DNA of 29,069 bases from positions 1-29,069 of the IMG/VR virus record IMGVR_UViG_3300007541_000132; one strand, given 5' to 3'. The stretch comes from a virus. Positions 1,184-17,900 of the stretch are shown here, piece by piece. The notes beneath the pieces were generated by a model that was given only the letters and a program-made list of their open reading frames with translations, searched no databases and was not told the origin of the DNA. The position numbers were made by a program, and so were the translations under genes. Positions within the stretch are counted from its first letter, which is position 1. Every line of letters starts with the position of its first letter.

Positions 1184-1202
1184 GTACGGTTGTGTGTGTC
1201 TG

Positions 1203-1234
1203 GGTGAGTGGCTCCGAGGGCGTAGCCACTCACC
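1203..1234 (+). promoter_or_regulatory. Strong intergenic hairpin
   Basis: GGTGAGTGGCT (1203-1213) and AGCCACTCACC (1224-1234) form a perfect 11-bp inverted repeat with a 10-base loop. It lies between the genes ending at 1183 and starting at 1264. No T-run follows, so it is more likely an RNA processing or stability element, or a protein-binding site, than an intrinsic terminator. It is one of several strong hairpins placed ahead of genes in this operon. Confidence 0.6.
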
Positions 1235-1263
1235 TGCGACACCACTTAGAGATTGGAGATTAT

Positions 1264-2013
1264 GTGATTAAGTTGCCTGATTTGAATAGTCGAGGCAAGG
1301 TCTTTCCGAAGTCTGGGCGTCCACAAGTTGATGACCGTTTTCCGTTTACGGAACGGTTTTTTCTGAAGGCGTTTGTTGACCAGGGGATTTCTTCTGATGG
1401 TTTGTCGTTGGAGGAGATTGAGTCTGCGTGTGAAGCGTATTGGCTTGGTGACCGTGTTCATAGGTCTGATGATGGTGTGTTTGAGCCTTATCAGGAGTTT
1501 GAGGGCTTCGTTCATGATGATGATTTGTCGTCTGATTTGAAGCGTGATTACGAGTGGGAGTGGTCTGACGGGGATGCTCGTTGGTCGTTTTCGTTTGTGC
1601 CGTCTGATGACGGTGTGTTGGGTTCTGTTGCCCCCGCAGGGGTGCGGGGCAACGAGAACCCCGGTGTAAGTATCCATAAGACTAGTGAAGGAGTGGTTAT
1701 GATTGAGTTGATTGTTGCTGGGGTTTCTAATCCTGGTCCGAATAGTACGAACGTTTCGATTCTGAAGGATGAGAACGGGGTTGCTCGTCAGACTTGGATT
1801 CCGAATGAGATTGTTCAGCAGTACAGTATTGTTCCTGGTTCTACGATTATTGTGGAGCAGGTTCGTAAGATTGGCGTTCTTGAGACGCATTGGGAAAATG
1901 CTGATGGTGAGATGGTTCCGTTGAAGAATCCTCGTCAGCGCATTCAGTTGGGCGGCGAGTTCAGGGTTGAGTCTCCTGATGCTGAGCCGTTGAAGCCACT
2001 GTCTGCTTCCTGA
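1264..2013 (+). CDS. Hypothetical protein, probably a fusion of two small proteins
   Basis: GTG 1264 is preceded by GGAG five bases upstream. The frame is then open for 249 residues to the stop ending at 2013. The first 120 or so residues are acidic and aromatic, with many Asp and Trp residues. The last 104 residues, from ATG 1699, look like a small beta-rich domain. The two parts are joined by a Gly/Pro-rich stretch encoded across a strong hairpin (1621-1660). ATG 1699 carries its own GAAGGAG five bases upstream, so a separate short product (1699-2013) is likely. The beta-rich part could be an OB-like fold, but I see no diagnostic motif. Function is unknown for both parts. Confidence 0.6.
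   Translation: MIKLPDLNSRGKVFPKSGRPQVDDRFPFTERFFLKAFVDQGISSDGLSLEEIESACEAYWLGDRVHRSDDGVFEPYQEFEGFVHDDDLSSDLKRDYEWEWSDGDARWSFSFVPSDDGVLGSVAPAGVRGNENPGVSIHKTSEGVVMIELIVAGVSNPGPNSTNVSILKDENGVARQTWIPNEIVQQYSIVPGSTIIVEQVRKIGVLETHWENADGEMVPLKNPRQRIQLGGEFRVESPDAEPLKPLSAS
1621..1660 (+). promoter_or_regulatory. Long hairpin inside a reading frame, ahead of an internal start
   Basis: The left arm runs 1621-1634. The right arm is GGGGCAAC (1646-1653), one bulged G (1654) and AGAACC (1655-1660). This gives 14 base pairs with a single bulge and an 11-base loop. It ends 38 bases before the internal ATG at 1699. The reading frame passes through it without a stop. Confidence 0.6.
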
Positions 2014-2022
2014 TGCTTGTTT

Positions 2023-2059
2023 GGGGGGTCTGGGTCTCTGTGACCTGGGCCCCCCTTTT
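2023..2059 (+). terminator. Rho-independent terminator
   Basis: Six Gs (2023-2028) plus TCTGGGTC pair with GACCTGGG plus six Cs (2050-2055), allowing three G-T wobbles. The loop is TCTGT (2037-2041), and TTTT follows immediately (2056-2059). It starts 10 bases after the stop of the preceding gene. It is the clearest terminator in the window and would split the early run into two transcripts or dampen read-through into the amidoligase block. Confidence 0.8.
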
Positions 2060-2133
2060 GCTGTTACCGGCTCTGCTAACAACTTCAAGTCACAGGGCGG
2101 GAATTTATCGGGTGGGTTAACTTTGGAGGTTTT

Positions 2134-2301
2134 ATGTCTGCTGTGAGTTTGGTTTTCTTTTGGGTTGGCATTGTGGGCGCTGTTGTGATTGGTGTCCCTT
2201 TGTTGGCCGCTGTATTGGATAAGCGGGATGAGAGGGCAAAGCGGTTGGCTGCTCGTCGTCGTCATCCTACGTTTTTCGGAAAGGATTCTAGCGATGCCTA
2301 G
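2134..2301 (+). CDS. Small membrane protein with a basic tail
   Basis: 55 residues from ATG 2134, preceded by TGGAGGT four bases upstream, to TAG 2299-2301. One hydrophobic segment (about residues 4-27) is followed by a strongly basic stretch with a triple Arg, so the C-terminus should face the cytoplasm. Its end overlaps the amidoligase start at 2294 by 8 bases, which suggests translational coupling and possibly membrane tethering of that system. It is the first gene after the terminator at 2023-2059. Family not recognised. Confidence 0.6.
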   Translation: MSAVSLVFFWVGIVGAVVIGVPLLAAVLDKRDERAKRLAARRRHPTFFGKDSSDA

Positions 2302-3289
2302 TTATGAGGAAGAGTCGGGTTGTTCGTGCTATTCGTGTAACGATTTGTTCGATGATTCTAGTTATGGTTCGTGGTCGGATTACGATGACCAGTGGCGTTG
2401 TGATGATTGCCATGACCGTCATTGTTACGACAATGATAGTGAAAGCGTCATTATGTCGTATGGTGCAAAACCAAGCCCCAATTTTTGGAGCGATGATGGC
2501 CTCTGCTCTTACTATGCGCCGGTTAATGACTCGGGTAGGCAGGTTCAGTGTTATGGCATTGAGCAGGAGGTCGAGTTTGTTGGCCGTGGCGAGATGTTGT
2601 CTCATGCGGAAACTTTGATTGACAAGTTGAATGCTAAAGGTGAGGTTGCGTATTTGAAGGAAGATGGTTCAATTCATCACGGGTTTGAGATTGTTACTCA
2701 TCCTGGGACTTTGGGTTTTTTTATGAATCATTTTCCTTGGCAGCCCATTGCAGATTTGGCGGGCAAGGAGTTCAAGTCCTGGAATCGTCGTTCGTGTGGG
2801 TTACATATTCACATGTCGAGGGCGGCGTTTTTGGATGATAAGCATTTGTTCAAGTTTTTGTATTTTGTTTACAATAATCCTGCTCCGCTTATTCAGTTCG
2901 CTGGTCGTCAAAGTTCATACGCGAAGTTCGGTATTGATGCTTTCTTGAATGGCTATGACGACTATGAGAGGGCTACCACCGTTCGTGGTTCTTCTTTTAT
3001 GGACATGGCGAAGGGGAAAAGCCGTAATCACGACCGTTATGTGGCAGTCAATTTGATGAACGTGCACACTGTCGAGTTGCGGTTTTTCCGTCCATCTTTG
3101 CGTATTGAAACAAATTTGGCTGCGATTCAGTTTTGTGATGCTGTGTTTAATTACACGGAGATGGTGGATACGCCGTCGGTTATGAGTCGTCGTGCGTTGG
3201 AGTTCAATTCGTTTCGTTCTTGGGTTAGGTCTCAGGGTGAGCGTTACGAAATTTTGTCTAATCGTTTTAATGAAAGGGTTACTGCTTAA
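2294..3289 (+). CDS. Amidoligase-family protein with N-terminal zinc-binding motif
   Basis: 331 residues from ATG 2294, with GGAAAGGA upstream. Residues 10-44 hold Cys pairs (C12/C15 and C36/C39) like a small zinc ribbon. The catalytic region begins with GIEQEVEF near residue 88. It continues with EDGS...FEIVTHPGT, then GLHIHMS, and near the end AVNLMNVHTVELRFF. This ordered set matches the glutamine-synthetase-like amidoligase family (Amidoligase_2), whose members are predicted to use ATP to join a carboxyl group to an amine. The conserved Glu and His residues would bind metal and ATP. The stop overlaps the next gene's start (TAATG), and that gene is a glutamine amidotransferase, the expected ammonia-supplying partner. 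Substrate is unknown: host peptide, cell-wall peptide or phage protein are all possible. Confidence 0.8.
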   Translation: MPSYEEESGCSCYSCNDLFDDSSYGSWSDYDDQWRCDDCHDRHCYDNDSESVIMSYGAKPSPNFWSDDGLCSYYAPVNDSGRQVQCYGIEQEVEFVGRGEMLSHAETLIDKLNAKGEVAYLKEDGSIHHGFEIVTHPGTLGFFMNHFPWQPIADLAGKEFKSWNRRSCGLHIHMSRAAFLDDKHLFKFLYFVYNNPAPLIQFAGRQSSYAKFGIDAFLNGYDDYERATTVRGSSFMDMAKGKSRNHDRYVAVNLMNVHTVELRFFRPSLRIETNLAAIQFCDAVFNYTEMVDTPSVMSRRALEFNSFRSWVRSQGERYEILSNRFNERVTA

Positions 3290-4239
3290 TGTGTTTGTTG
3301 ACGTTTATTCCTGAGGGCGTGATGCCGGACATGGAGAAGTTTCGTGTTGCCGCCATCAATAATCCTGATGGTTTTGGTTTCGCTATTTTGGCGGAGTCCA
3401 AGATTTTGACGGGTCATTCGATGAGTTTTGAGGCTGCTGCCGACCAGTTCCTCGACTTGCGTTCTCGGAACATGGGGCCTGCTTTGTTTCATTTCAGGTG
3501 GGCTACTCATGGTTCCGAGACGATAGATAATTGTCATCCTTTCTTTTTGGGTCAGGACGGCAAGTCTGTGGTCGCTCATAACGGTATTTTGCCTGTCAAA
3601 ATTTTGAAGGGTGATGACCGTTCTGACACGAAGGTGTTTGCTCAGGACATTATGCCGGGGGTTGGTGGTATTACTGCGTTGGATGATGATGATTATTATC
3701 AGCGTTTGTCAACGTGGGCTGCTGGTTCGAAGTTGGTGTTTCTGACTTTGCATGATGATGCGAAGTACAACTTTTATATTGTGAATGAGCAGTGTGGTCA
3801 TTGGGCTGATGACATGTGGTGGTCTAATGATGGCTACAAAAGTGTGCAAGTGTACCGGTCGTACGGTTATGGCTGGGGTGGACATCATTGGGATGACTGG
3901 GAGGTCGATGCAGCGGGTTATCCGAACGATACGAAATTTGCTAAGACCAAGTGGGAGCAGGAAGAAATAGACCTAATGGTGGATACTTGCATCGAGCAAT
4001 TTGATGTTTTCATGACGCAAGTTTCTGAGCATTCACAAATTCTGGAATGTTACTGCTGTGGGTATCAGGAAATGTGTGGGCTTGATGACATGCCTACGCA
4101 TTGTCCTGTTTGTGAGTCGTGTTTGTATTGCGGTAATCCGCAAGAGTGTGCGTGTTGGGATGTGTTGTACGAGAATTACAACATGCCTGTTTATCAAAGT
4201 CCGTTTATTGTCAAGGAGGTAAGTAATGCAAGAAGTTAG
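3289..4239 (+). CDS. Class II glutamine amidotransferase
   Basis: 316 residues. The protein begins Met-Cys, so after Met removal Cys becomes the N-terminal nucleophile typical of class II (Ntn) glutamine amidotransferases. Other class signatures are visible: NNPDGFGFA near residue 21, HFRWATHG near 67, AHNGIL near 95 and a SDT motif near 108. The enzyme should hydrolyse glutamine and pass ammonia to a partner. The partner is presumably the amidoligase whose stop overlaps this start. A Cys-rich tail (about residues 253-289, several CxxC pairs) looks like one or two zinc ribbons and is an unusual extension. The central part has a Trp/Tyr/Gly-rich stretch around residues 165-205. The last bases overlap the next gene by 14. 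Confidence 0.8.
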   Translation: MCLLTFIPEGVMPDMEKFRVAAINNPDGFGFAILAESKILTGHSMSFEAAADQFLDLRSRNMGPALFHFRWATHGSETIDNCHPFFLGQDGKSVVAHNGILPVKILKGDDRSDTKVFAQDIMPGVGGITALDDDDYYQRLSTWAAGSKLVFLTLHDDAKYNFYIVNEQCGHWADDMWWSNDGYKSVQVYRSYGYGWGGHHWDDWEVDAAGYPNDTKFAKTKWEQEEIDLMVDTCIEQFDVFMTQVSEHSQILECYCCGYQEMCGLDDMPTHCPVCESCLYCGNPQECACWDVLYENYNMPVYQSPFIVKEVSNARS

Positions 4240-4750
4240 TGTCACTGTTGACTTTCCTTCGGTTGTCAACGTTCCAATCAGGGTTCCGGTAGAGGCTTTG
4301 CGCGAGGCTCAAACCGACGCAATGCGCGAACAATTACGTACAATGGTTGACTCTGTTGTGGAGGAGCGTGTTCCTTCGGCTGAGTTGCTCATTGAGAGTT
4401 TCACGATGGATTGGGATTTTACTCGTAGGGTGCGTGACTGGATGGTGGAGTCTATTTCGTATGCAGATTTGGCTCATACAATGTGGAATCATGTTGACCG
4501 CGCAGAAATCTTGGATTCGTTGGAGTTGACGGAAGAGCGGTTTGCCGAGTTGATTAAGGCGCATTTGTTTAGTGACCGTCGTTTGTCTCGTATTATTGAG
4601 TCGCAAATTTCAAGTCAAATTACCAATAGTGATTACATGGATGCGCTTGCTTCGCGGATGCAAACATTTATTGACCAGAAAGTTGCCGATATAGCGGATT
4701 TGGTTATGCATCGTGTTGTCGGTAATTTTGCTAAGGCTCTCGATGAGTGA
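4226..4750 (+). CDS. Helical hypothetical protein next to the amidoligase pair
   Basis: 174 residues from ATG 4226, with a strong AAGGAGGT upstream inside the end of the amidotransferase gene. The sequence is predicted almost wholly alpha-helical, acidic, without Cys clusters, signal peptide or membrane segment. It overlaps the amidotransferase by 14 bases and the WhiB gene by 8, so it is translated as part of the same unit. It could be a structural or target partner of the amidoligase system, or an unrelated early protein. I do not recognise a family. Confidence 0.6.
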   Translation: MQEVSVTVDFPSVVNVPIRVPVEALREAQTDAMREQLRTMVDSVVEERVPSAELLIESFTMDWDFTRRVRDWMVESISYADLAHTMWNHVDRAEILDSLELTEERFAELIKAHLFSDRRLSRIIESQISSQITNSDYMDALASRMQTFIDQKVADIADLVMHRVVGNFAKALDE

Positions 4751-4994
4751 GTCTATTATTGATTTGTTTCGTGAGCGTTGGATGCTTGATGCTGCATGCA
4801 AAGGTAAGCCGTCGGAGTGGTGGTTTCCTGTGCATGGTGCCAACAAACAGCAGAAAGCCAATGTTCGCGCTGCAAAAGCGTTGTGTGCTGAGTGTTTAGT
4901 TCGCGAGGAATGTTTAGACTTTGCTCAGCGTAACGCATGTGACGGCATCTGGGGTGGCGTTTCATTGTACAGGGGGACATCTCATGGACGATAG
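4743..4994 (+). CDS. WhiB-family iron-sulfur transcriptional regulator
   Basis: 83 residues from ATG 4743, overlapping the previous stop in ATGAGTGA. Four conserved Cys residues (C19, C48, C51, C57) are arranged as C..CxxC..C and would hold a 4Fe-4S cluster. They are followed by the family hallmark GIWGG at residues 68-72. WhiB-like proteins are known only from Actinobacteria and their phages and act with the primary sigma factor. The tail after GIWGG is only about 11 residues and lacks most of the basic stretch that usually contacts DNA. This copy may therefore act mainly through sigma-factor binding, for example to redirect or silence host promoters. That last point is inference. Confidence 0.9.
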   Translation: MSESIIDLFRERWMLDAACKGKPSEWWFPVHGANKQQKANVRAAKALCAECLVREECLDFAQRNACDGIWGGVSLYRGTSHGR

Positions 4995-5202
4995 AGTGCA
5001 TTTGGAGTTGACGATTTCACTGCCAGATGCTGTTACGGTGTCGGAGTTGTTGGGTTGGGCTACTAGTTATAGGATGTCTCGTCTTATTGACGAGAATCCG
5101 GATGACCCTGTGGTGGATGCTCGGTTTAAGCAGTTGGTTGCGGGCGTCAAGTTGCGTCGACAGATTGAGGATATTTTATTCGAAATAACGAAGGGAGAAT
5201 GA
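4984..5202 (+). CDS. Small hypothetical protein
   Basis: 72 residues from ATG 4984, with an AGGGGG site about 7 bases upstream. It overlaps the end of WhiB by 11 bases. The sequence is mixed alpha/beta in appearance and soluble, with no Cys motifs. The upstream in-frame start at 4921 lies deep inside WhiB and is not preferred. No family recognised. It sits between the regulator and the exported lysozyme-like gene. Confidence 0.55.
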   Translation: MDDRVHLELTISLPDAVTVSELLGWATSYRMSRLIDENPDDPVVDARFKQLVAGVKLRRQIEDILFEITKGE

Positions 5203-5206
5203 ATTT

Positions 5207-5638
5207 ATGTTTAGTTCAATTCTGGTGTCTGCTATTTTAGTACTAAATACGGGTGGGTCTGCTCTAGATGGCCCGTCAATGTCTGAGTACAAATATTCCA
5301 AACCTCCGGCTACTGCCAAATGTCCTGAGTGGTGGTATTTGGCCCATCAGGCGGGTTGGACTCGTGGTCAGATGCAGATGCTTGACCGCATCATGTGGCG
5401 TGAATCTCGTTGCGACATGATGGCTTGGAACCCTAAAGACCCTGCGGGTGGGTCTTTCGGATTGATGCAAATCAATGGGTTTTGGGTGAAGTGGCTTCGC
5501 AACCTAGGGATTATCGAGCATAAGTTAGATTTGTCCGACCCTGAGATAAATCTTACTGCTGCTTTGGCTATTTGGGAGTATGCGCATGAACGTCATGGTA
5601 AGGGGTGGAGTCCTTGGGGTTTCCACCGTAAGACTTGA
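5207..5638 (+). CDS. Exported lysozyme-like / SLT-type muralytic enzyme
   Basis: 143 residues from ATG 5207, with AAGGGAG upstream. Residues 1-20 look like a short signal peptide or membrane anchor. The catalytic domain shows WRESRCD, with the likely catalytic Glu at 66. It continues with SFGLMQIN at 83-90 and SPWG at 135-138, the pattern of lytic transglycosylase/lysozyme-like (SLT) domains that cleave the glycan strand of peptidoglycan. C39 and C69 could form a disulfide, which fits export. Its place in the early plus-strand run, far from the late M15 endolysin, is odd. It may aid cell-wall entry, superinfection control or lysis. It could equally be a resuscitation-factor-like enzyme. Confidence 0.75.
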   Translation: MFSSILVSAILVLNTGGSALDGPSMSEYKYSKPPATAKCPEWWYLAHQAGWTRGQMQMLDRIMWRESRCDMMAWNPKDPAGGSFGLMQINGFWVKWLRNLGIIEHKLDLSDPEINLTAALAIWEYAHERHGKGWSPWGFHRKT

Positions 5639-5645
5639 CAGCGTG

Positions 5646-5654
5646 TGCTAACGT
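5646..5654 (+). promoter_or_regulatory. Candidate extended -10 promoter element
   Basis: TGCTAACGT fits an extended -10 (TGn plus TAnnnT, the actinobacterial -10 form). It lies just after the stop of the lysozyme-like gene and ahead of the leader ORF and hairpin that precede the nuclease gene. A TTGACA at 5635-5640 is too close (8 bases) to act as its -35. Start of transcription would be near 5661. No other promoter is convincing here. Confidence 0.35.
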
Positions 5655-5683
5655 GGGGGGAACCTACGGAGGGGGGACAGGTA

Positions 5684-5722
5684 ATGAGTCGAACGACACC
5701 TCGGGGTGTCGTTCTCCGGTAA
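5684..5722 (+). promoter_or_regulatory. Leader: 12-codon ORF overlapping a 10-bp hairpin
   Basis: ATG 5684 follows a very strong GGAGGGGGG site by 7 bases and encodes only 12 residues (three of them Arg) before TAA at 5720-5722. A perfect hairpin lies inside it: GAACGACACC (5691-5700), loop TCGG, GGTGTCGTTC (5705-5714). The nuclease gene starts 22 bases downstream at 5745. Translation of the mini-ORF would unwind the hairpin, so this could be an attenuator-like or coupling device for the replication genes. Confidence 0.45.
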
Positions 5723-5744
5723 GCGTCCACAGTCGGGAGATAAT

Positions 5745-6593
5745 GTGAGAATTGAAGACGATAAGATATTTGTACGCCAGTCATGGCTTGGTGATGCTTT
5801 GATGTGTCCTGAACGTGCCCGGTTGATAGAGCAGAATCCGTCTGCTCGTCGTGAAAATGATTCAGCAGTTATGGGTACAGCGTGTCACTCTGCTATTGAG
5901 GCCGTGTTGAACGGCTCTGTGGACGCAACTGACATCGGGTCGTTCGGTGTTCATAGTTTCCATGCAATTCAGCAGGACTTGGCCTCTCAGGGCAAGGCCG
6001 TCAATGTGACTAATACTGACCCTTCTAAGTGGGAGACGCATATTGCGTCGATGTGTGAGGCTTGGGTTCGTGATATTTATCCGAGTGTGCCTGCTGGTGG
6101 TGAGACTGAAAAAAAGTTTGCTGTTCGTGTCGGGTCTGTGTATAACAAGTTGTATGAGTATGAGTTGTGGTTTGAGGGGACGATGGATTATTTGACATCG
6201 TCAGGTATTTGGGATTGGAAAACTGCGGCTCGTAAATACAATGAAAATGAAAAGCAGATTCAAAATATTCAGTCTGCTATTTATGCTGAGGCTGCTGTGC
6301 AGTTGGGTGTGTTGGAATATCCGCTTGAGTTTAATTTTGGTGTGATGATTCGCAATGCTTCTTCTTCGGGTCAAATTGTTCGGGTGAAGCGTAAGCCCGA
6401 GCATGCCAAGTGGGTTGTTACGCAGGCGACTGCGTTGATTAACAGTATTTTGTTGAGTAAGATTTATCTGCCACAAGAAAGGTGGCCGGTGAACGACCAG
6501 CATCATCTCTGCTCTGAGCGGTGGTGTCCTGTTTGGTCGATGTGTAAAGGCTCCTTTATTTCGGAGCGTACTAATAGCGCTGAGGAGGCGTAA
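5745..6593 (+). CDS. Cas4/RecB-like PD-(D/E)XK nuclease
   Basis: 282 residues from GTG 5745, with GGGAGA four bases upstream; the in-frame start at 5706 falls inside the leader hairpin. MCPERARL near residue 20 gives one Cys (C21), and three more sit at C256, C261 and C267. This is the Cys layout of Cas4/AddB-type nucleases that bind a 4Fe-4S cluster. The nuclease core shows MGTACH (H48), EGTMDYL (144-150), WDWKTA (D157, K159) and QIQNIQSAIYAEA. Such enzymes resect DNA ends. It heads the DNA-metabolism block and its stop overlaps the next start. Likely roles are recombination-dependent replication or host DNA breakdown. Confidence 0.85.
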   Translation: MRIEDDKIFVRQSWLGDALMCPERARLIEQNPSARRENDSAVMGTACHSAIEAVLNGSVDATDIGSFGVHSFHAIQQDLASQGKAVNVTNTDPSKWETHIASMCEAWVRDIYPSVPAGGETEKKFAVRVGSVYNKLYEYELWFEGTMDYLTSSGIWDWKTAARKYNENEKQIQNIQSAIYAEAAVQLGVLEYPLEFNFGVMIRNASSSGQIVRVKRKPEHAKWVVTQATALINSILLSKIYLPQERWPVNDQHHLCSERWCPVWSMCKGSFISERTNSAEEA

Positions 6594-7018
6594 TGGATAA
6601 AGATAGGGCAATTATCACTCAGGTCTGTGCAAAGATTGCTGCAGATTTGACTGACAAGTCAATCGGGGTTGAAGAGCGTATTGGCGAGTTCGCCACGTTG
6701 TTCTCTTCAATTAATGACATCATCATGGATACGATTTATGGTGATGTTGTTGCTGCCGAGAAACAAAATGCAACTGTTGTTGCAATGGTCAAGGATGCCT
6801 TCAACGGTGAAGACGTTAGCGCTCCAACCACTTCGGGTGGCTTGACTGTTGTCGGCAAGCAGCATGGTGCTCTGCCTGATTGGTTGATTAAGGCTTGTAA
6901 GCGTGATGGCGTCACCAAAATTTATGATAATCGTGATGGTGCCAATGCGACCAATAAGCGTCCGCACTTCAAGGCTGTTGATGCCGAGAAGGCGTACTGG
7001 CCGCCGCGTAGCAAGTAA
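6593..7018 (+). CDS. Hypothetical protein of the replication block
   Basis: 141 residues, starting at ATG 6593 on the nuclease stop (TAATG) and ending on the helicase start in the same way. The first 70 or so residues look helical. A linker rich in Thr, Ser and Gly follows, and then a compact C-terminal region (about residues 95-141) with LPDWLIKACKRDGV, YDNRD and a WPP motif near the end. I have a weak memory of this C-terminal block in other actinophage replication loci but cannot name a family. Tight coupling between nuclease and helicase suggests a DNA-binding or loader role. Confidence 0.6.
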   Translation: MDKDRAIITQVCAKIAADLTDKSIGVEERIGEFATLFSSINDIIMDTIYGDVVAAEKQNATVVAMVKDAFNGEDVSAPTTSGGLTVVGKQHGALPDWLIKACKRDGVTKIYDNRDGANATNKRPHFKAVDAEKAYWPPRSK

Positions 7019-8040
7019 TGCGGCTGTCTGCTGAGCAGATTACCTCCAATTGGGATTTGACGGGGTTGCTTACGGCAGCCCCGTCTCCTGATTATCGGAT
7101 GTATTCTCCGTTGTCGGATGCCGCTGATTCGTTTGTTCGTTGGGCTCAGTCTCCACAAGAACGCGTCCATCTTGGTATCAATCGTATTGACGCCGAGTTG
7201 CGTGGTATTGCGCCAGGCGAAATTGCAATGATGCTCGGGTTCGCTCATGGTGGCAAAACACTTGTTTTGTTGCATGCGTTGCGGAACAATCGGGATAAGC
7301 ATATTGCTTTGTTTATTCCGGATGAGCCTCGTCAGTTGGTGTTGACTAAGTTGACTTGTATTCATCATCGTATTGATGCTCGTGAACTTGAGGCTCGGGT
7401 GGCTGCTGATGACAGTGAAGCCATCGAGTTGTTGCGTCGTACTGCTGAAGAAGACTTCCCCAATCTTGCTGTTTTTGACCAGCCGTTAACCGGCTCTGAT
7501 ATGGAACGGGCTTACAATGAAGTTTGTGATGTGTGGGGTCGGGTTCCTGAGTTGGTTGTTGTTGACTATTTGGATTTGGTTGAGGCCGGTGAGACGGTAC
7601 CCGACAAGGCGACGTTTCTAAAATCCTTTGGTCGTCGTCACGATATTCCAATGCTAGTTCTGCATCAGACGTCTCGTACTGCGGGTGCGGATGGTGCAAA
7701 GTTGACGATGTCGTCGGGTTCGTATGGTGGCGAGCAGCAGGCTACGTCAATTATTGGTGTTCGTCGTAAGAAGTATCAGATTATGGCGGAGATTAATGAG
7801 TTGACGGAGAAGTTGGACAGGCAACATAGTGAGCGTCTTGTTGAGCGTCTCGAGTTTTTGCGTCATGATTTAAAGATTCATGAGTTCACGGTGACGGTTA
7901 GTTTGTTGAAAAATAAGCGTCCTGCTGGCCAATTGGTTGATGATATTGATTTTGAGTTGGATATTACGACTGGTCGGTTGCGTGAGTTAAATGGCGACTT
8001 GCCTGCGCAGTATCGGCATTCGCTCGGGAATCATGACTGA
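7018..8040 (+). CDS. DnaB-like replicative helicase / RecA-fold ATPase
   Basis: 340 residues from ATG 7018. The Walker A motif is GFAHGGKT (74-81) and the Walker B region is LVVVDYLDL (about 179-187). LHQTSR (215-220) matches the sensor-like motif of DnaB C-terminal domains, and EINELTEKLDRQHSERL looks like a linker helix. It is shorter than full DnaB (about 450) and has only a short N-terminal region, as in many phage helicases. It would unwind DNA at the fork and pair with the primase encoded next, whose start overlaps this stop (TGATG). Confidence 0.85.
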   Translation: MRLSAEQITSNWDLTGLLTAAPSPDYRMYSPLSDAADSFVRWAQSPQERVHLGINRIDAELRGIAPGEIAMMLGFAHGGKTLVLLHALRNNRDKHIALFIPDEPRQLVLTKLTCIHHRIDARELEARVAADDSEAIELLRRTAEEDFPNLAVFDQPLTGSDMERAYNEVCDVWGRVPELVVVDYLDLVEAGETVPDKATFLKSFGRRHDIPMLVLHQTSRTAGADGAKLTMSSGSYGGEQQATSIIGVRRKKYQIMAEINELTEKLDRQHSERLVERLEFLRHDLKIHEFTVTVSLLKNKRPAGQLVDDIDFELDITTGRLRELNGDLPAQYRHSLGNHD

Positions 8041-8927
8041 TGCTTGACCCCAACATTTGTGTTTCTTATTTCTATTCGTTGTTCCAGGGACGCGATGATG
8101 CGTACGGCACTTGGGAAGGCGGTAGCGAGAAGTGTGACGTTGGGGTCAAACAGTTTGTGAACCACCTCACCGGCAATCTGCTCATTGGTGTCTACCCCCT
8201 GACAGATGAGTCGATGGTCCGGTGGGGTTGTTCCGATATTGATGTGGACGATTTGGATTCGGCCCGCAATTTGCAGACGGCTTTCGCTGTTAAACGGGTG
8301 CCGTCGTTTGTTGAGAAAACTCGGCGTGGTTATCATGTGTGGGTTTTTGCTGATGATTGGGTTCCTGCTCGTGTGATGCGTCGTGCATTTCTTGTTGCGC
8401 ACCAAGTAATCGGTTTGCCACCCAAAGAAGTGAATCCCAAGCAAGAGTCTGTTTCGGGTTTGGGTAATTATGTTCGTTTGCCGTATCCAGGTGGTTTGTT
8501 GTCTTTGCCTTCTGAGCGGTTTGTTTTGGGTGATGATGACAAGCCGTTAGACCTCGGTGATTTCTTGGGAAACGCAATAAATTCAAGGGTTTCCGAGGAT
8601 TTGTTGTCGATGCTTGCTGACATGTATTCGCCCCCGCAGCGTAAATCTTTTGATGTTGTTGCCAATGTTGGGGTGATGGATGCGTTGAGTCGTGTCAATC
8701 CGATTGTTGCCAAGATTTGGCGTGAAGGCCCGTTAGAAGGAGTTGACAGGTCTACTACACTTGCTCGCATGTGTCATTTGATGCGTGAGGCCAACACTCC
8801 TGTGTCGCATGCTTTTGCGCTTCTTGTTGATGCTGATAAACGTTGGGGCAAGTTTCATTTGCGTCCTGATGGCGAGTTGCATTTACGCAACATGCTTGAG
8901 GCGTCTTATAGCAAAGGGGTGTCGTGA
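8040..8927 (+). CDS. AEP-type primase-polymerase
   Basis: 295 residues. The catalytic DxD appears in CSDIDVDD (D66, D68). It is followed by VEKTRRGYHVWVF (91-103) with the conserved His of the family, then KEVNPKQ (129-135) and GLGNYVRLPY (140-149). This order matches archaeo-eukaryotic-type primase domains of the kind also seen in phage primase-polymerases and TOTE elements. The last 100 residues are helical and could be a primase C-terminal or helicase-interaction domain. It should make primers, and perhaps short DNA stretches, for the helicase encoded just before. No separate DNA polymerase is visible in the window. Confidence 0.8.
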   Translation: MLDPNICVSYFYSLFQGRDDAYGTWEGGSEKCDVGVKQFVNHLTGNLLIGVYPLTDESMVRWGCSDIDVDDLDSARNLQTAFAVKRVPSFVEKTRRGYHVWVFADDWVPARVMRRAFLVAHQVIGLPPKEVNPKQESVSGLGNYVRLPYPGGLLSLPSERFVLGDDDKPLDLGDFLGNAINSRVSEDLLSMLADMYSPPQRKSFDVVANVGVMDALSRVNPIVAKIWREGPLEGVDRSTTLARMCHLMREANTPVSHAFALLVDADKRWGKFHLRPDGELHLRNMLEASYSKGVS

Positions 8928-9286
8928 AGAAATTTTCTTTTCACCAAGTGTTTAACATTCGTCCTCGTGCGAAAGGTCGCCCTCGGGTGACCAAAACTGG
9001 TCATACGTATACGCCTAAGCAGACGGTGGATTACGAGAAGGCTATTCGTGAGGCTTATTCGGGTCCGTGTTTTGAAGATGGAATGCTGTCTGTAAAGTTG
9101 CGATTCACTATAGAAGGCACTGAGGTGATGATTGAAAAGGTTGGACTTAATCCAAATGTTGAACAACCCCAATCTAGGTTGCGTGGTGACATAGACAACT
9201 ACGCCAAATCCGTGCTTGACGCCTTGAATGGCGTCGCGTACAAAGATGACCGACAAATCGTTTGCTTGTATTTGGAGAAGGCATGA
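8924..9286 (+). CDS. rusA: RusA-family Holliday junction resolvase
   Basis: 120 residues from GTG 8924, overlapping the primase stop. Family hallmarks are visible: KGRPRVTKTGHTYTP near the N-terminus, and GDIDNYAKSVLDALNG (88-103) followed by YKDDRQIV (106-113), which carry the catalytic Asp residues (D89, D91, D108/D109 region). RusA enzymes are dimers that cut four-way junctions symmetrically. Here it would resolve recombination or replication intermediates before packaging. Length is normal for the family. Confidence 0.9.
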   Translation: MKKFSFHQVFNIRPRAKGRPRVTKTGHTYTPKQTVDYEKAIREAYSGPCFEDGMLSVKLRFTIEGTEVMIEKVGLNPNVEQPQSRLRGDIDNYAKSVLDALNGVAYKDDRQIVCLYLEKA

Positions 9287-9501
9287 TTTCTCAGTGGTGG
9301 TCATGGCTTCTTGTTTTCGTCGGCTCCGCCGGGTTGGTAATCGTTGGCCGTCGAGTCTGGTGGGGTTGGCTCGTGCTCTTTGTCAACGAGTCGCTTTGGA
9401 TTGTGTATTCACTCGTCACCAAACAGTACGGGTTTATTGTGGGCGCAACAATTTATAAGATTGTGTATTGGAATAACATTCGACTTTGGCGGTCTGTGTG
9501 A
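9283..9501 (+). CDS. Small multi-pass membrane protein
   Basis: 72 residues from ATG 9283, with GGAGAAG three bases upstream. It overlaps the RusA stop by 4 bases (ATGA). Trp/Val/Leu-rich hydrophobic stretches near residues 5-22, 24-42 and 46-60 suggest two or three membrane passes. The C-terminus is basic (RLWRSV). Small Trp-rich membrane proteins of this kind are common in actinophage early regions, with no established function. Confidence 0.6.
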   Translation: MISQWWSWLLVFVGSAGLVIVGRRVWWGWLVLFVNESLWIVYSLVTKQYGFIVGATIYKIVYWNNIRLWRSV

Positions 9502-9932
9502 AAGAGTCGCGCTGGGATTTTCCAGCAGAACGTCGTTACAACTTTTCCGATGATTTAAAGTTTGGGAAACTCGGGGAGGAACTCACCCGAGATTTCCTGC
9601 AATCAATTGCGGATGGTTCTTTCGAAGTAAAAACCGACCGTTATCGCAATGGCCGCATGGTTGTTGAGATTGAGCAAAATCCCCGCAAAACTGGTTGGAA
9701 GCCGTCGGGTTTGCGCGTTACTCAAGCAAAGTGGTGGGTGTACATTTATTGTTTGGACGGCGCTTTAATTGCTATTTCGGTTGAGCGGTTAAAACGTTAT
9801 GTTGACCGTTTGCCTAAATCTCGGATGAAGACGTTCGCGCCCACATCGTCTAACCCGACTCGCGGGTTTTTGTTGTTGCCTGAAGAAGTTATGGATTGTT
9901 TGACGAATCCGGATTACGACGCTGAGCAATAA
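9498..9932 (+). CDS. Putative PD-(D/E)XK nuclease-like protein
   Basis: 144 residues from GTG 9498, which overlaps the previous TGA. GKLGEELTRDFL (23-34) supplies a conserved Glu, SFEVKTDR (41-48) gives the E-x-K core and VVEIEQ (55-60) adds acidic residues. TQAKWWVYIY (75-84) completes a typical small restriction-fold layout. Likely roles are a structure-specific nuclease or second junction-resolving enzyme, or a DNA-end-processing partner. The fold call is by motif order only, so confidence is moderate. Confidence 0.6.
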   Translation: MKESRWDFPAERRYNFSDDLKFGKLGEELTRDFLQSIADGSFEVKTDRYRNGRMVVEIEQNPRKTGWKPSGLRVTQAKWWVYIYCLDGALIAISVERLKRYVDRLPKSRMKTFAPTSSNPTRGFLLLPEEVMDCLTNPDYDAEQ

Positions 9933-10005
9933 CGAATCCAGTTTTTCTCCGTTCTCTTCGCTGTTTGCGTATGGAAGTAGGAGGCCAGAGACGCCGATTG
10001 AGGCG

Positions 10006-10761
10006 TTGATGATTGCCGGTATTGGTGAGGATGCTGTTGAGTCTGTTCAGGAATTGCAGCCGATTCGTGAGGCTGTCGCTCAATGTATTGAACAGTTAAG
10101 TGAGCATGACCGTTTTATTGTTGATGCAATCAATAGCGAAATGATTTCTTATGAAGAATTAGGTCAACGTCTTGGTGTTTCCAAACCGCATGCATGGCGC
10201 TTGAAAAATGCAGCGTATGATAAATTAAAGTACTTTTTAATGATGCACCCACTAATTAGAAGGAGAATACAAGTGGCTGATACTTGGGATGAATCTGCCC
10301 TGCAGTGGATTACTCACCTGGATTCTTTGGCAAAGGATTCCGTTGAGATAGATTCCCTGAAGTTGCGTTCATTGCGTGACAAGGCTGTTGATTCGGTTAG
10401 AAATGAAGAGTTGAGTCCGTTGTTCTGGACTTCTATTGCTTCGATGGCAATTTCGGGTTTGCGCAACAAAGGCGGTTTTTCCGTTCAGGGAATGCTAACT
10501 TTGTTGGTTAAAAAGCAGAATGATTATGGTCATGGAAACATTTTGCAGTTTGGCCAGTTTGGTGTATTTGTCCGGTTGAGTGACAAGATTGAGCGACTGC
10601 ATAATTTGAAAAGCAGAAAGGCTCTTTCTGAGCCTTATCTTGATGCCCTTTGGGATGTTGTTGGCTATTGTGTTGTGGCATTAATGCTTGATGATGGTAC
10701 TTTTAGTTTGGAGTTGGGAGAAAAGGTCGTTGAAGAACTATCAAATAACAGTGGGGTTTGA
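10006..10761 (+). CDS. HTH (sigma-region-4-like) plus DUF1599-like fusion protein
   Basis: 251 residues from TTG 10006 (ATG 10009 is equally possible). The frame is open back to 9904 and the upstream translation also looks protein-like, so the true start is unsure. Residues 30-78 resemble a sigma region 4 HTH (LSEHDRFIVDAI, ELGQRLGVSK, AWRLKNAAYDKL). From about residue 155, a DUF1599-like domain shows QNDYGHGN (171-178), VRLSDKIERLHNL (189-201) and YLDALWDVVGYCVVAL (211-226). That domain is linked to nucleotide or DNA modification. A near-perfect ribosome binding site (AAGGAGA) precedes an in-frame GTG at 10273, so a separate 162-residue product is likely. Confidence 0.65.
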   Translation: MMIAGIGEDAVESVQELQPIREAVAQCIEQLSEHDRFIVDAINSEMISYEELGQRLGVSKPHAWRLKNAAYDKLKYFLMMHPLIRRRIQVADTWDESALQWITHLDSLAKDSVEIDSLKLRSLRDKAVDSVRNEELSPLFWTSIASMAISGLRNKGGFSVQGMLTLLVKKQNDYGHGNILQFGQFGVFVRLSDKIERLHNLKSRKALSEPYLDALWDVVGYCVVALMLDDGTFSLELGEKVVEELSNNSGV

Positions 10762-10906
10762 TGTTCCTGTTTACCCGGAAGAAGTCGCACGCGTCTTGGC
10801 GGTCTACTTTGGCCGCGTTGTCGTGGGCAAGGGCATACCGCAGAATGGCCTTCCGCCGGGGTATATCCATGTTCTTAATACAAAGGATGGTTTGGTTGAT
10901 GTCTGA
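10730..10906 (+). CDS. Small hypothetical protein
   Basis: 58 residues from TTG 10730, which follows GGAGAAAAGG. An alternative GTG at 10751 lacks a ribosome binding site. It overlaps the previous gene by 32 bases in another frame, and the following gene by 8. The protein looks like a compact alpha/beta fold (VGFDVPVYPEEVARVLAVYFG). No motif identifies a function. The overlaps and good start context of the next gene support it being real. Confidence 0.45.
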   Translation: MKNYQITVGFDVPVYPEEVARVLAVYFGRVVVGKGIPQNGLPPGYIHVLNTKDGLVDV

Positions 10907-11174
10907 AGATTGGATTTACAATTATGTTTCAGCAGATGACGTAGATGACATGAATCGTGGTGCTGACCGTATTCGCAAGAATATGGAAGGCGGGATTCGT
11001 TTGACGCTTAATGCGGATAACGAGTCTGCCGTTGATTTGTGTCGTATTTGGCGTGACGCCATGAACGGTAACCGCATGGCTTGGGTGAAGATTAGTTCTT
11101 TTGTTGCCGGTATTGTGAACACTGTTGAAGCCCATCTCGATGATGAGGGGATTAATCCGTATGAAGAAGATTAA
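10899..11174 (+). CDS. Small hypothetical protein
   Basis: 91 residues from ATG 10899, with AAAGGATGG about ten bases upstream. The longer frame from 10758 would run across the preceding gene and is not preferred. The protein is soluble and helical, beginning with an acidic segment (SADDVDDMNRGADRI) and ending DDEGINPYEED. No family recognised. It overlaps both neighbours, as is usual in this operon. Confidence 0.55.
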   Translation: MSEDWIYNYVSADDVDDMNRGADRIRKNMEGGIRLTLNADNESAVDLCRIWRDAMNGNRMAWVKISSFVAGIVNTVEAHLDDEGINPYEED

Positions 11175-11928: not shown

Positions 11929-14900
11929 CTAGTTGTATTTGCGTACTGGGGAGCCGAGGTATCCGAGCCATGCGTTGAGTTGGCTGAGTCCTTCGTTGGC
12001 GAAGAGTCGTTCGGCTTGTCCGACGGGTGGTGCTGTTGCGCGTAGCGCGGCGAGCACTCGTTCTTCGGTTGTGGTCAATGGTTTTCCTCCAAAAGCGGTT
12101 TCGCCCATGATTTGTTCTGCTGGAATTTTGATGAGCGGGTTGGCTTTGTTGAGGAATGCTTTGGGGTCGTAAAACATTTTGACGTCATTTTGAAGTCGGT
12201 TGAATCCGATGTCGGGCATGAGGAATAGGCCTTCTCCGAATGGGAGTTTGAATCCTCCAAGTTCGCGGACGAACGGTGGGTCTGGTCGTTCTTTGTCTCG
12301 GAAGTTTCTTTTCAGGCTTTCGTAAATGAGGTATGGGCGTGGGTTGAGCCACATGTTTTGGATTTGCATTGTCATGTTTCTGGTGGTCCACAGCCAGAAT
12401 GGGATGATTTGACGCATGACTTTATCCAAGTTGGAAAGGTCTTCGTAATCAAAGTAAAAACGTTTTACTCTTGCTTGGGCAAGTCCTGCGTCTCCGCCTT
12501 TTACTGCGGTGTCGAATGCAAGTGCAAATCGCATATAGTTGTCTGCCTCTTGACCCAAAGCATAGTTTTTCCGTGTAAGCCAGTTGTCGTAGATTCTGCT
12601 TCCACCGGTTGCTTCTTTAAAGGTTTCGCTGAAGATGCCGCCTCCGGAGCCGAGTGCTCCAAGTCTTGCTTCTTCAAGTACTGGAATCAGTTCGGGTGGT
12701 TGTGTTCTAAGCCAAACTTCCCATCTCGTTCCGGCTCTTTTTGCTTTAGCCCATGATGCATAGATGGGCGTGACGCGGATAAGGTTATCGATGTTTCCGC
12801 CAGAAATGGTAAATGTTACGGCGTTGCCAATTGCGTTTCGGACGTGGAAACCAGGACTGAGGACGGCAAATGCTTTCCATGCTTTGGTGTATGGGCCAAC
12901 GTACAACGCCAGTTTGCGTATCCATTCTGGGTCTGCTGTTCTGGTGGCGTTGTTCCACAGCGCGGCAAACTCTTCGGTTGCCTGTAGTTCGGGGTAGTAC
13001 TTTTCGTTAAGTACAACAAAGCCTTCTTTAAGTACACGCCTGTTTGACTCTGCTACAGCATCGACTGGAACACCATCAATTATGGAACCGTTAGGTAAAC
13101 GCAGTTTGCCGTTTGGCATGAGCACGGCGCCTTTGCTTATGGATGCCTGAACGCTTTGCAGCATCTGTCTGTCAAATGCCGCTTGACTCATGTTTGCAAC
13201 CGCGTCAAAAAACTGTGTTTCAGCATCAATTTGCGCAAGTATTACCGCATCAATTGCATCAATTTCGTCTTTTGTTCCAATGTGCTTGACGAGTTCAAGG
13301 GCGTCGTCCATGCGGACACGGCCCTCTTCCAGAGTTTCGTAAAGTTGGCCTCTTCTTTTGGCGGCCTCTCGGACAATCTGGGCCCGCTCTGCCTGCGACT
13401 TAACTGTGGGCGCAACCTTTTGTTCAAACTGTGTGAGCAGTCCGGATATAACTCGGATGTCGTCTTCAATCTGTTTTGCGCTTTCGGGGGTGTACGTGGC
13501 CAGGTTTTGTGCCTGGTCGTAGACCGCCTGCGCCTGCTGGACGCGGCGGGCGGCGGCTTTGACTTCACCTCTTGATGCGTCCACAAGACTGGTGCGTGTT
13601 GGGGCCAGTAGTTCTTCAAGTTCTTTTTGCAGATTTGTTATGCGTTCTTCATCAACTTGAGTTTTAAAATTTGCTTGACGATAAGGAACGGTTCGCTGCC
13701 CTGCCTCTAGGTCAAGTTGTCGCTTAACTTCGAGTGCCTTGTATGGCTCATCAATGCTTTCTGCTTCTTTTGCTTCAAGCCACCTGGCAACCTTTGAGTT
13801 TTTGCTTTCAACTGCTGCTTCTTGGTGCAGAACCCTATCCAGGGCATTTTGGTTGGCTTCGCTGCGCATTTCCGCTTCTTTTGCGGCTCGTGCCGAGCCG
13901 CGCATGCGAGCAAGTTCTTTCAGTTGTTCTGGAGTTAAATCGTCTGGTGGGCCCTGCAGCAATCTGGTGCGTTCACGTTCAAGCGCACGCGACCCACGTT
14001 CTTTAACTAATGGGGTTTCTACTCCGTCTTCACGAAGTTTTCGAAGAATTCGAATTTCGTCAGCCAACTGCTCTGGGCTTTTGCGTTCAAGTGGCGTAGA
14101 CAAAACGGCGTCAATTTTTTGTTGACCGTATTTGCTTCGAGCAACAAGGTCAGAATAAACTCTTTCGTATTCCGCAATTTTGGATTCGGGTACAGAGTCG
14201 TCCAAAAATTGTTGTTCTTTAGAAGCCTTAACAGCAATGTTGTAAAGTCGGTCTAGTTCTTTTGCGGATTCAGCAGTCCATTCGTCCAACTCTAGGGAGA
14301 GGTTTTGAAGATTTCTTTCAAGTCTTTCACCGGTTTGTGCTGCGCGGTCCATCAAGAATTGACCGTTCTTTGATTTTTCTAGTTGGTCGGCTGCAATCCA
14401 TTCCGCACGTGCATCATTAATTTTACTCAGCATGTTGTAGCCATCAGTATCGGCCCATTGTGCCGCTATCTCTCCGCGCCTAGCAGCAACAATTGATGGG
14501 TCTGCAGCATTGGCGGGATTTTCGGCAATAAGGTCTTGTACTAAACGCTGCACAACATTTTCGTCTGAAACCTCGCCGCCCAATGCGTCCCATTCAGCGC
14601 GATGCAAAGCCTTAAATCTATTGTGTGCAGTTTTAATTATTGCATCAATTTTTTTGTTGACACCAAGTTTTATGGTTCGACCATTTACAATGTCTTCCCA
14701 TTCCTCTTGAGTGAATCTTGTTCCAATTGTTCGTCTTTGGTTATAGGAAAGTTCTGCCAAACTGTAAGCAATGTTCCCGGCTCTTTGCTGGCTTTTAGCA
14801 ATCGGGTATGCGTCGGAGTTAATTAGTTCCTCGTGAACAGCCAGTGCCTCCTGCTTGTTCATGCGTCCTTTTGCGGTGCCTTTGGCAGCCGCGATGGGAC

Positions 14901-17900
14901 GGTCAACACCGGCCATCAAAATGTCCTGCGTTGCCGCCTGACCCCTTTCAGAACGAATGAAAACCCTGGGCATTACGCCCATGTTGCTTTCAATAAGATT
15001 CAAATCACTGAGAAGACGCAAAACCTGGTTTTCTGCCTCACGCATTTCAGATTCAAGACCAGTAATTTTTTTCTTGTAAACAATCTCAATGTGTTCGTCA
15101 AGCGACTCCAAAAGTTTTGCCGCAAACTCTCTTTTCGCCGGTTTATCCCAAGACAATTGGTTGAGTGCCTCAAGGAAATTTCTGTTAGCGGTAATCCAAG
15201 AATCATAAATTTCCCTGCCTTCAAGACTTGTCAAAAGAATATTTTTTACGGTTTGTTGAATGCCCGGTATCTGTTCATCTGAAACCAATTTCGAAACAAC
15301 GTAAACAGAATTATCTGCACCGACAAATTGAAGAGAGTCGGTCGGGTCGACGGCATCTTCAGCAACATCGGCAATAACCTGTTGTTCGGGAATCGTTCCA
15401 AGAACCTGCTCGTCTCTAATCAATTCGGTCGGCTTATATGTTTCGTCAATTTTTTTCTTAATTGACTGAAAAGGCGCGTAAGCAACCTCCTGCTGTGTGC
15501 GCAATTTTCTAACTTCAGCCCTAGCGACTTTGACGTCGTTTTCACGCATCAACTGAACACGCCTTAACGTGGCCCTATACTTTCGGTACTGCTTGGCTTG
15601 CTCTGGAGTTAGTTCCTTTAGTTCGCGCTGTATTTGGGTTTCACCAATCCTGAGACCCTCTGCCTCTTTTGACTTATTTAATTTTCTCCACTGCTCAAAT
15701 TCGGCAAGTTGTTCATCAAAAATAACAGCGTCATCTGACACTTTTCTGTAGTTACTGAATGGATGGTCAAAGGAATCTTTCCCGCCGTAACGACCATAAA
15801 TATTATTTTGGTCAGTAAGTTGCGCAAGACGAGTCTGGTCGCCTCTAGCAATTGCGTCATTAATAAGTGGTTGCGCGTTTCGGCGCAAAATTTCGTCAAC
15901 AATATCATCGCCAATTTCTATTCCGTAAGGCTCCAGTATCGAACGCCATTGCATGTATTGAGCAAATGAGGCCTGCTGGTGCAACAAGTCCTGCATCATG
16001 TGGACGCCACGGACAGTTTCTCCAGACCTAATCAAGCGTTGTGCTTCAGCCCAAATACCATATTGTGTTTTTCTTCCGCCACGGACCTGCACGTTATTGT
16101 TGAGGTCGGTCAAAAATGTTGATTGAACCTTGCCTGCGCCAATTGCTTCTTCGTTTGCAATAATCCGTCCCTGGACGTAGCGCATTACATCGTCAATTGA
16201 TGCTGGCATGGTGTCTTCGTTTAGTGCACGAAAAAGAACTTCTCCTGCAGTATCGTCATTAAATTGTCCGACCGCCTGCTTCATGGCTGGCGTCCAGGCT
16301 GGGTTGGCAGAAACAACGGGTGCCGGTATGCCCCTAAGCCTTGCTATTTTATTTACCGCTTCGTAAATGTCTTTGCCATCTATTTTTTCAAATAGACCAG
16401 AGCCAACTCTTGGAATCATTACTTGGGCATCAGCAAGGTTTGCTATGTCGCGTTCAAAACGTGACACCCTTTTGGTGTAAGCATCAAAGTCTCGCATTAA
16501 CTGTCCAACTTCGCTAGAACTCATTTGGTCAAGCATTAATGCGCGTTGCTTAAGCGCTTCAAGTTGTTGCTGGAATCTTTCGCGCGTGCGCTTAATCATG
16601 CCAAAGTTTGAAATTCCATCAACGTCTTCAATGATGTCATCTAGTTGACTGAACAGAGAAATGTAATTTTGATTTGCAGCGTCGGACGACGCAACAGCGT
16701 CTGCGAGCGCTGCTTTAAGTTGAGCCAAATTTTCTTGACTAAAATCTCCGGCCTTTAAAGCCGCCAGGGTTGCCTGTCGGTCTCCCAGCATGGCGTCAAG
16801 AGCATCCCAAAGTTTGCCGTTATTGTCATTTGTTACGGCAACCCAATTACGTAAAGCAACCGTCATTTCCTGCAATCGCTGTTGTGGTGCGTCCACAAGA
16901 AATTGGCGTGCATACTGCGGGTCAATTTGGAGGACCTTGTCCATCCATTCAATCAGTTGCCGTTGTGTGAGGTATTCGACCATGTCATACGTGGCCAATT
17001 GTTCTGCGTATGCACGAACATATTTTGCCATCACGTTGGCAATGTCTGTTTCAAAAATATCAAAGTTTACGCTTTTCTTACCTGGGTCAATTGAGTTTCT
17101 GGCAAGTCGGTTGAGGTCGTCTACTGTTTCATTTCCGGTCAAAATGTGTCCAAACCACACTTTGCCTTGACCAAGTTCTCGTTCTTTGAACACGGATTGT
17201 GTGCGCGATTTATCTACGCCATAGACCATTTCGTCAAATGCTTCATCGCCCATAGACAAACGATTTTGCATAGACGCTTCGGTTTCCATGCGCGGAAAGT
17301 ATCCGTCAACAATTTCGCCTGGTTCACGTGAACCGATTTGTTTTGCGCGTACTTTTATGCGTTCAATAAAGTTATTAAAAATTGTTCGCATTGCAAGCGC
17401 AGAACGAACATCATCAGGGGATGCTCCCGGAACCAAAGAGGGGTCCTTGACCTTGTCCAGAAGCCTGTGCATGGGAACGCTTGTAGTTCGTGCCTGGTCA
17501 ACAACGGCACCGATTTCATCGGATGCCTCTTCTCCATATTTCGCAATGTTGATTCTTTTGAGGTCGTCTGCTTCAAGAATGGTTAAAACTTTGCCCACTT
17601 CTTCAGATGGCAGGTTTCCTTTTGACAATGCAATTCTGAAATTTCGAATTGCGTTTGGCCCATATTGGTCAATGCTCCCAACACCTTTGGGCGTAATGGC
17701 GCGCATCAAAGCCCCACCCACCTGAGTGCCAACGACACCAAGCCTTGCTTTTGTTAAACCCTTTTCAACAAACATGGCCAAAGGGCCGCTTCCGGGGACT
17801 TTTACTCGGGAACCAAAATAGTAAATACCAGGTCCTCGAATGCCGAGGTCTTCTAAAAGAAATGGATGTTTGTAAAGCGCTTGCTTGCCCTTAGAAGCAA

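Follow-up and report, generated by a model that had tools for sequence, protein, structure and literature searches.

Adjoining genes for an amidoligase and a class II glutamine amidotransferase (GATase) are already known from several phages, and functions for them have been proposed. In podoviruses of the LUZ24, phiEco32 and RIO-1 type, both belong to a 'peptidoglycan modification cassette' found among early or replication genes (PMC5498523, PMC3890496). The Methylophilales (OM43) phages MEP401 and MEP402 carry the two genes side by side and in the order seen here, and the article describing them (PMC10580990) cites the idea that the host wall is modified. Modification of the wall has been put forward for this cassette or larger ones (PMC10580990, PMC5498523, PMC11945000); this function, like superinfection control, was thus suggested in earlier papers on related phages and is not new. 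Mycobacterium phage Marvin (Marvinvirus) encodes an amidoligase (gp105) followed by a GATase (gp106), which are 30–31% and 42% identical to the proteins studied here. MurT resembles the Mur ligases and GatD represents another type of GATase, and neither is known to be homologous to the phage pair. MurT-GatD, the two-gene combination of ligase and glutamine amidotransferase that amidates peptidoglycan in S. aureus, offers a functional analogy only (as outlined in PMC3267633). Ergothioneine synthesis likewise uses a GCL-like ligase (EgtA) and a class II Ntn protein (EgtC) in one pathway, EgtC being a structural neighbour of our GATase. EgtA and EgtC are not known to be an ammonia-feeding pair, however; EgtB acts between their two steps.

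The window analysed here is the whole 29,069-base stretch of an IMG/VR virus record, a fragment of a genome of the short-tailed-phage type. Its minus strand encodes portal, scaffold, major head and terminase proteins, and a plus-strand block encodes a PD-(D/E)XK exonuclease, a DnaB-like helicase, a primase and RusA. A second record is 99.86% identical to the window across 9.8 kb. Four genes at 2134–4750 (plus strand), each overlapping its successor, lie where the original prediction had placed them, and its label of an early operon seems reasonable from the strand and these neighbours. A hairpin resembling an intrinsic terminator (2023–2055, plus strand; 14-bp stem followed by TTTT; –33.4 kcal/mol, z –5.8) closes the upstream gene (1192–2013), so the operon plausibly starts at 2134. 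A scan for sigma-70-type promoters gave 14 matches versus 12.7 in shuffled sequences, and we claim no promoter. Searches of the window for tRNA genes and Rfam families returned nothing, and there was no match to PADLOC defence families. Elsewhere in the window, an AEP-TOTE type primase (8040–8927, plus strand; 5.4e-17) adjoins the DnaB-like helicase, and a 2206-aa protein (11932–18549, minus strand) has no confident Pfam or PADLOC match.

The second of the four genes (2294–3289, plus strand) encodes the GS-like amidoligase, of 331 aa, with its catalytic domain at residues ∼85–290. Its score against Pfam Amidoligase_2 is below threshold (18.3 bits, cut-off 22) and its PHROG match is strong (1.4e-27); in an alignment of 64 viral and cellular amidoligases, 63 match Amidoligase_2 at E ≤ 0.01 (best 1.9e-11). 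Residues E90, E92, K122, D124, E132, H171, H173, R205, N253, E261 and R263 are invariant or nearly so across these 64 rows, where the GxExE, K-x-D-x-S, HxH and TxExR catalytic motifs form invariant columns. Counted over 183 amidoligases, GxE.[ED] and GxHxH are present in all and TxExR in 182. This conservation of catalytic residues indicates, at the level of sequence, an intact GS-like site. The AlphaFold model is confident (pLDDT 92.6), with YbdK, GmaS, plant glutamate-cysteine ligase (GCL), Dop, PafA and GS as the best PDB matches in Foldseek, at probabilities of 0.93–1.00 yet TM-scores of only 0.3–0.4. By this model the protein adopts the predicted GS/GCL fold.

Ahead of the catalytic domain lies a zinc-ribbon or LIM-like CxxC..CxxC motif (C12/C15/C36/C39, residues 12–39; 2327–2410, plus strand). 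This N-terminal motif had been predicted, and C12 and C36 are invariant, with C15 and C39 present in at least 90% of the 64 rows; viral and cellular amidoligases share the Cys pairs. Seven of the aligned amidoligases match Pfam LIM (best 1.8e-6). A PDB sequence search with the amidoligase alone returned nothing; when its profile was used instead, most matches were to LIM-type zinc proteins and involved the N-terminus. Bacteria seldom have LIM-like domains. In Clostridia loci (e.g. L264, L262 and L209), amidoligases have arrays of CxxC in their N-termini.

The GATase gene (3289–4239, plus strand; 316 aa) starts within a TAATG overlap with the amidoligase gene, and its product contains the Cys2 nucleophile, RWATHG, HNG and SDT. 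As with its partner, the Pfam score is sub-threshold (GATase_4, 20.7 bits, cut-off 23) and the PHROG match strong (7.3e-40); all 65 aligned relatives match GATase_4. A match to NCBIfam was limited to the GlmS/PurF glutaminase region and scored well under the cut-off. Cys2, the N-terminal nucleophile after Met, is invariant in the 65 rows. The same is true of R70, T73, G75, N98, G99 and D113, which make up the Arg/Thr/Gly, Asn-Gly oxyanion and Asp glutamine-binding motifs, and the class II catalytic residues are, judging from the alignment, intact. The AlphaFold model (mean pLDDT 86.5; domain confident, with low-confidence stretches at 189–218 and 303–316) matches the GlmS glutaminase domain and EgtC in Foldseek.

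Residues ∼253–289 of the GATase form the Cys-rich tail noted in the original prediction. A tail of this kind (at least two CxxC) is present in 102 of 102 unique viral relatives versus 2 of 46 cellular ones, a contrast that is a new detail. Marvin resembles the window in this respect and in the Cys pairs of its amidoligase; unlike the window, it has a different genome setting and a C-terminal extension on the amidoligase. MEP401 and MEP402 differ in having a long amidoligase N-terminal extension and a GATase without the Cys-rich tail, and the tail is also missing from the GATases of podovirus ctgrD200 and StenR_269, which are distant phages like MEP401. The Cys-rich motifs of both enzymes may bind zinc.

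We scanned with profiles of both enzymes, taking the best 80 matches in each case, a sample that leans to close relatives. Among the matches listed, 78 of 79 newly retrieved viral amidoligase loci have a GATase within 1 kb, and the sole exception ends at a contig edge; the reverse scan from the GATase found 77 of 77 viral loci paired at this distance, again among the matches listed. The concern that the two genes might rarely occur together is therefore dispelled. In every locus with both genes, the amidoligase precedes the GATase and shares its strand (184 viral, 54 cellular and 4 public loci, counts that include contigs retrieved more than once). On genome contigs, mostly of Clostridia and Ruminococcus, a GATase accompanies the amidoligase in 54 of 80 loci, and in the other 26, mostly Clostridia, none was detected, both among the matches listed; some records of C. 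difficile phages or phage-plasmids likewise hold an amidoligase with no GATase detected. The pair also occurs on Mycobacterium or Mycobacteroides plasmids (L331, L332), in one of which the GATase is annotated as glucosamine 6-phosphate synthetase. No natural fusion of amidoligase and GATase was seen in the loci compared.

With the DnaB-like gene as an independent anchor, 44 loci had enough upstream sequence, and both enzymes are present in 44 of 44, so the pair looks to be core in this phage family. The distance matrices of the two proteins correlate beyond what DnaB and the exonuclease account for (partial r 0.68; 0 of 2000 permutations), and linkage of adjacent genes can account for part of this correlation. 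A more distant phage, Manatee Spring phage MW202803 (44% DnaB), has neither enzyme in the 24 kb examined; its 'ATPase-like' and hypothetical genes were considered as a candidate pair and proved to be AAA_5 and DUF7192. Of the predicted four-gene module, the two enzymes stand as a near-obligate pair, and the outer two genes do not belong to the core: the two enzymes alone keep company in different phage groups, on plasmids and in Clostridia loci, and the neighbourhood comparison found no third gene common to viral and cellular settings. The fourth gene (4226–4750, plus strand; 174 aa) belongs to a family found in this phage group only. Neither it nor the membrane protein encoded by the first gene has relatives in distant phages; none was seen in Marvin.

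Intact catalytic residues together with near-obligate pairing make ATP-driven, glutamine-fed amide formation likely, as had been predicted, and we regard the pair as probably a glutamine-fed, ATP-dependent ligase. The GATase would use Cys2 to hydrolyse glutamine, and the amidoligase would convert a carboxyl into an activated acyl phosphate at the expense of ATP; the released ammonia, presumably passed from one enzyme to the other, would attack this intermediate to give a primary amide. Because no third gene recurs across lineages, the two enzymes probably complete the reaction together. To our knowledge, no characterised GS-fold ligase draws ammonia from a separate class II amidotransferase, and a demonstrated activity would, if the prediction is true, define a new enzyme arrangement. 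Among the papers searched, we found no enzyme-activity experiment on any member of the family.

The Foldseek matches also include enzymes of gamma-glutamyl chemistry (YbdK, plant glutamate-cysteine ligase and GmaS for the ligase, EgtC for the GATase), and gamma-glutamyl cyclotransferases (GGCTs) are part of the larger phage cassettes. Accordingly, the ligase might attach a gamma-glutamyl group, with the GATase-like protein serving as an EgtC-like or PuuD-like hydrolase and not as an ammonia donor. In the EgtA/EgtC and PuuA/PuuD pathways, however, a middle enzyme works on the glutamylated intermediate. No such enzyme is conserved beside the phage pair, and ligase and hydrolase alone would be futile. 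The LUZ24/phiEco32-type cassettes are richer in genes, with ATP-grasp, COOH-NH2 ligase and GGCT among them, whereas the window has the two enzymes only: a Pfam scan of its plus-strand proteins (1192–11171) gave no match to any of these three. We consider gamma-glutamyl chemistry quite improbable.

The first gene (2134–2301, plus strand) encodes a 55-aa protein with a single TM segment and a basic tail that ends ..ARRRHPTFFGKDSSDA and contains an HP[ST] motif. A match to RHH_10 (19 bits, cut-off 27) was judged to be chance. In the closest relatives (L008, L014, L016 and L039), a small TM gene immediately precedes the amidoligase gene; in other relatives the TM gene is further upstream, and in L017, L018 and L024 it is beside an amidoligase copy that lacks the Cys domain. 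Many TM tails have HP[STA] (e.g. RNHPTN, RRRHPTF), and 27 of 79 unique relatives have a small TM gene with such a tail ahead of the amidoligase. In many of these phages the GATase, too, has a terminal motif, TTHPSYY or TTHPSYN: C-termini with the motif were found in L008, L009, L014, L017, L021 and others, and the TM counterpart is at 2260–2290 of the window. The appearance of HP[ST] in both TM protein and GATase is a second new detail, and endings of this kind are nearly absent from the other protein families of the neighbourhood.

Both motifs are found in 20 of the 79 unique relatives, only the TM motif in 7, only the GATase tail in 2 and neither in 50. Much of this co-occurrence is explained by common ancestry, and two families can come to share a short motif by chance. 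The window GATase lacks the tail, nested in a clade that bears it (support 99/96 and 98/81), and the window TM protein retains HPT though its GATase has lost the tail. The shared motif may hint at a common docking partner, and nothing more. The predicted coupling to a membrane protein thus holds for close relatives, with the HP[ST] tail as a hint, and fails for distant ones. A more specific scheme is a long shot: one partner, such as the Cys-rich N-terminal domain of the amidoligase, would recognise docking motifs in the cytosolic tail of the TM protein and the C-terminal tail of the GATase, and the resulting GS-fold amide synthetase, fed by glutamine and tethered to the membrane, would be needed for infection throughout this actinophage family.

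Several of these observations bear on a protein or peptide as the substrate. The amidoligase could act on a protein carboxyl in the manner of Dop or PafA, both matched by its model, with ammonia from the GATase and with a host enzyme or the phage HP[ST] tails as targets. Its Cys-pair, LIM-like N-terminus is typical of protein–protein recognition, and the motif common to the GATase and TM tails would fit. However, no candidate target protein is conserved with the pair across lineages, and the pair persists in the window even though its GATase has lost the tail; we hold protein modification to be unlikely.

Peptidoglycan precursors are our leading guess, because of the membrane link, a lysozyme-like neighbour and the published proposals. 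The neighbour, in the same operon, is an SLT protein with a hydrophobic N-terminus (5207–5638, plus strand), which may simply be the endolysin, and none of the sequence features points directly to peptidoglycan. As a substrate, peptidoglycan is thus favoured tentatively, at rather less than even odds. In the full account, the TM protein of this phage group would probably hold the pair near the inner face of the membrane, where the likeliest substrate would be a carboxyl group on the stem peptide of host peptidoglycan or on its membrane-bound precursor. The altered wall might then serve superinfection control or, equally tentatively, control of the wall and lysis during infection. We give this account as a whole, a TM-held amide synthetase acting on a wall carboxyl during infection, a probability of roughly 0.4. 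Core status (44 of 44) suits a basic role in infection no less than it does an optional function in superinfection.

A WhiB-like regulator (4746–4994, plus strand) follows the fourth gene. As a marker, WhiB points to actinobacteria. Nanopelagicales phages of ∼39 kb isolated from fresh water have WhiB too (PMC10202952); from both facts we infer that the host of the window virus is probably an actinobacterium, and the virus would be of the lake-actinobacteria type. The window adds a member to the known kind of enzyme pair, from a family in which the pair looks to be core, stripped to two enzymes and a family-specific TM protein. The pair, widespread in phages and mobile elements and predicted to make amides at the cost of glutamine, serves, to judge from its core status, a function that these small actinophages do not do without, and is a promising way into the question of how they alter their hosts.

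Two other readings are less likely than action on peptidoglycan precursors. Help with host nitrogen assimilation was proposed for Phage-ZRK32, which has an amidoligase, a GATase, glutathione synthase and GGCT (PMC10945688), on evidence from growth with the whole phage, not from single genes. The Cys-rich domains, obligate pairing and core status better fit a specific target than bulk metabolism, and we think such a role very improbable here. The pair might instead amidate the precursor of a modified nucleobase destined for phage DNA. Some relatives encode a DUF1599 (nucleotide modification associated domain 1) protein (e.g. L115:11398–11712, minus strand; 4.9e-8), and the window has a weak, sub-threshold DUF1599 match at 10006–10758 (plus strand), next to a match to sigma-70 region 4. 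The proteins scanned in the window fragment, however, included no members of thymidylate-synthase-like, nucleotide-kinase or base-transferase families, leaving DNA base modification barely credible.

In some relatives the main amidoligase is preceded by another, shorter copy that lacks the Cys-rich N-terminus (L024:7563–8420, L018:3118–3954, L017:7596–8444 and L169:3257–4051), an arrangement of two ligases and one GATase. In several cases this copy is directly 3′ of a small TM gene.
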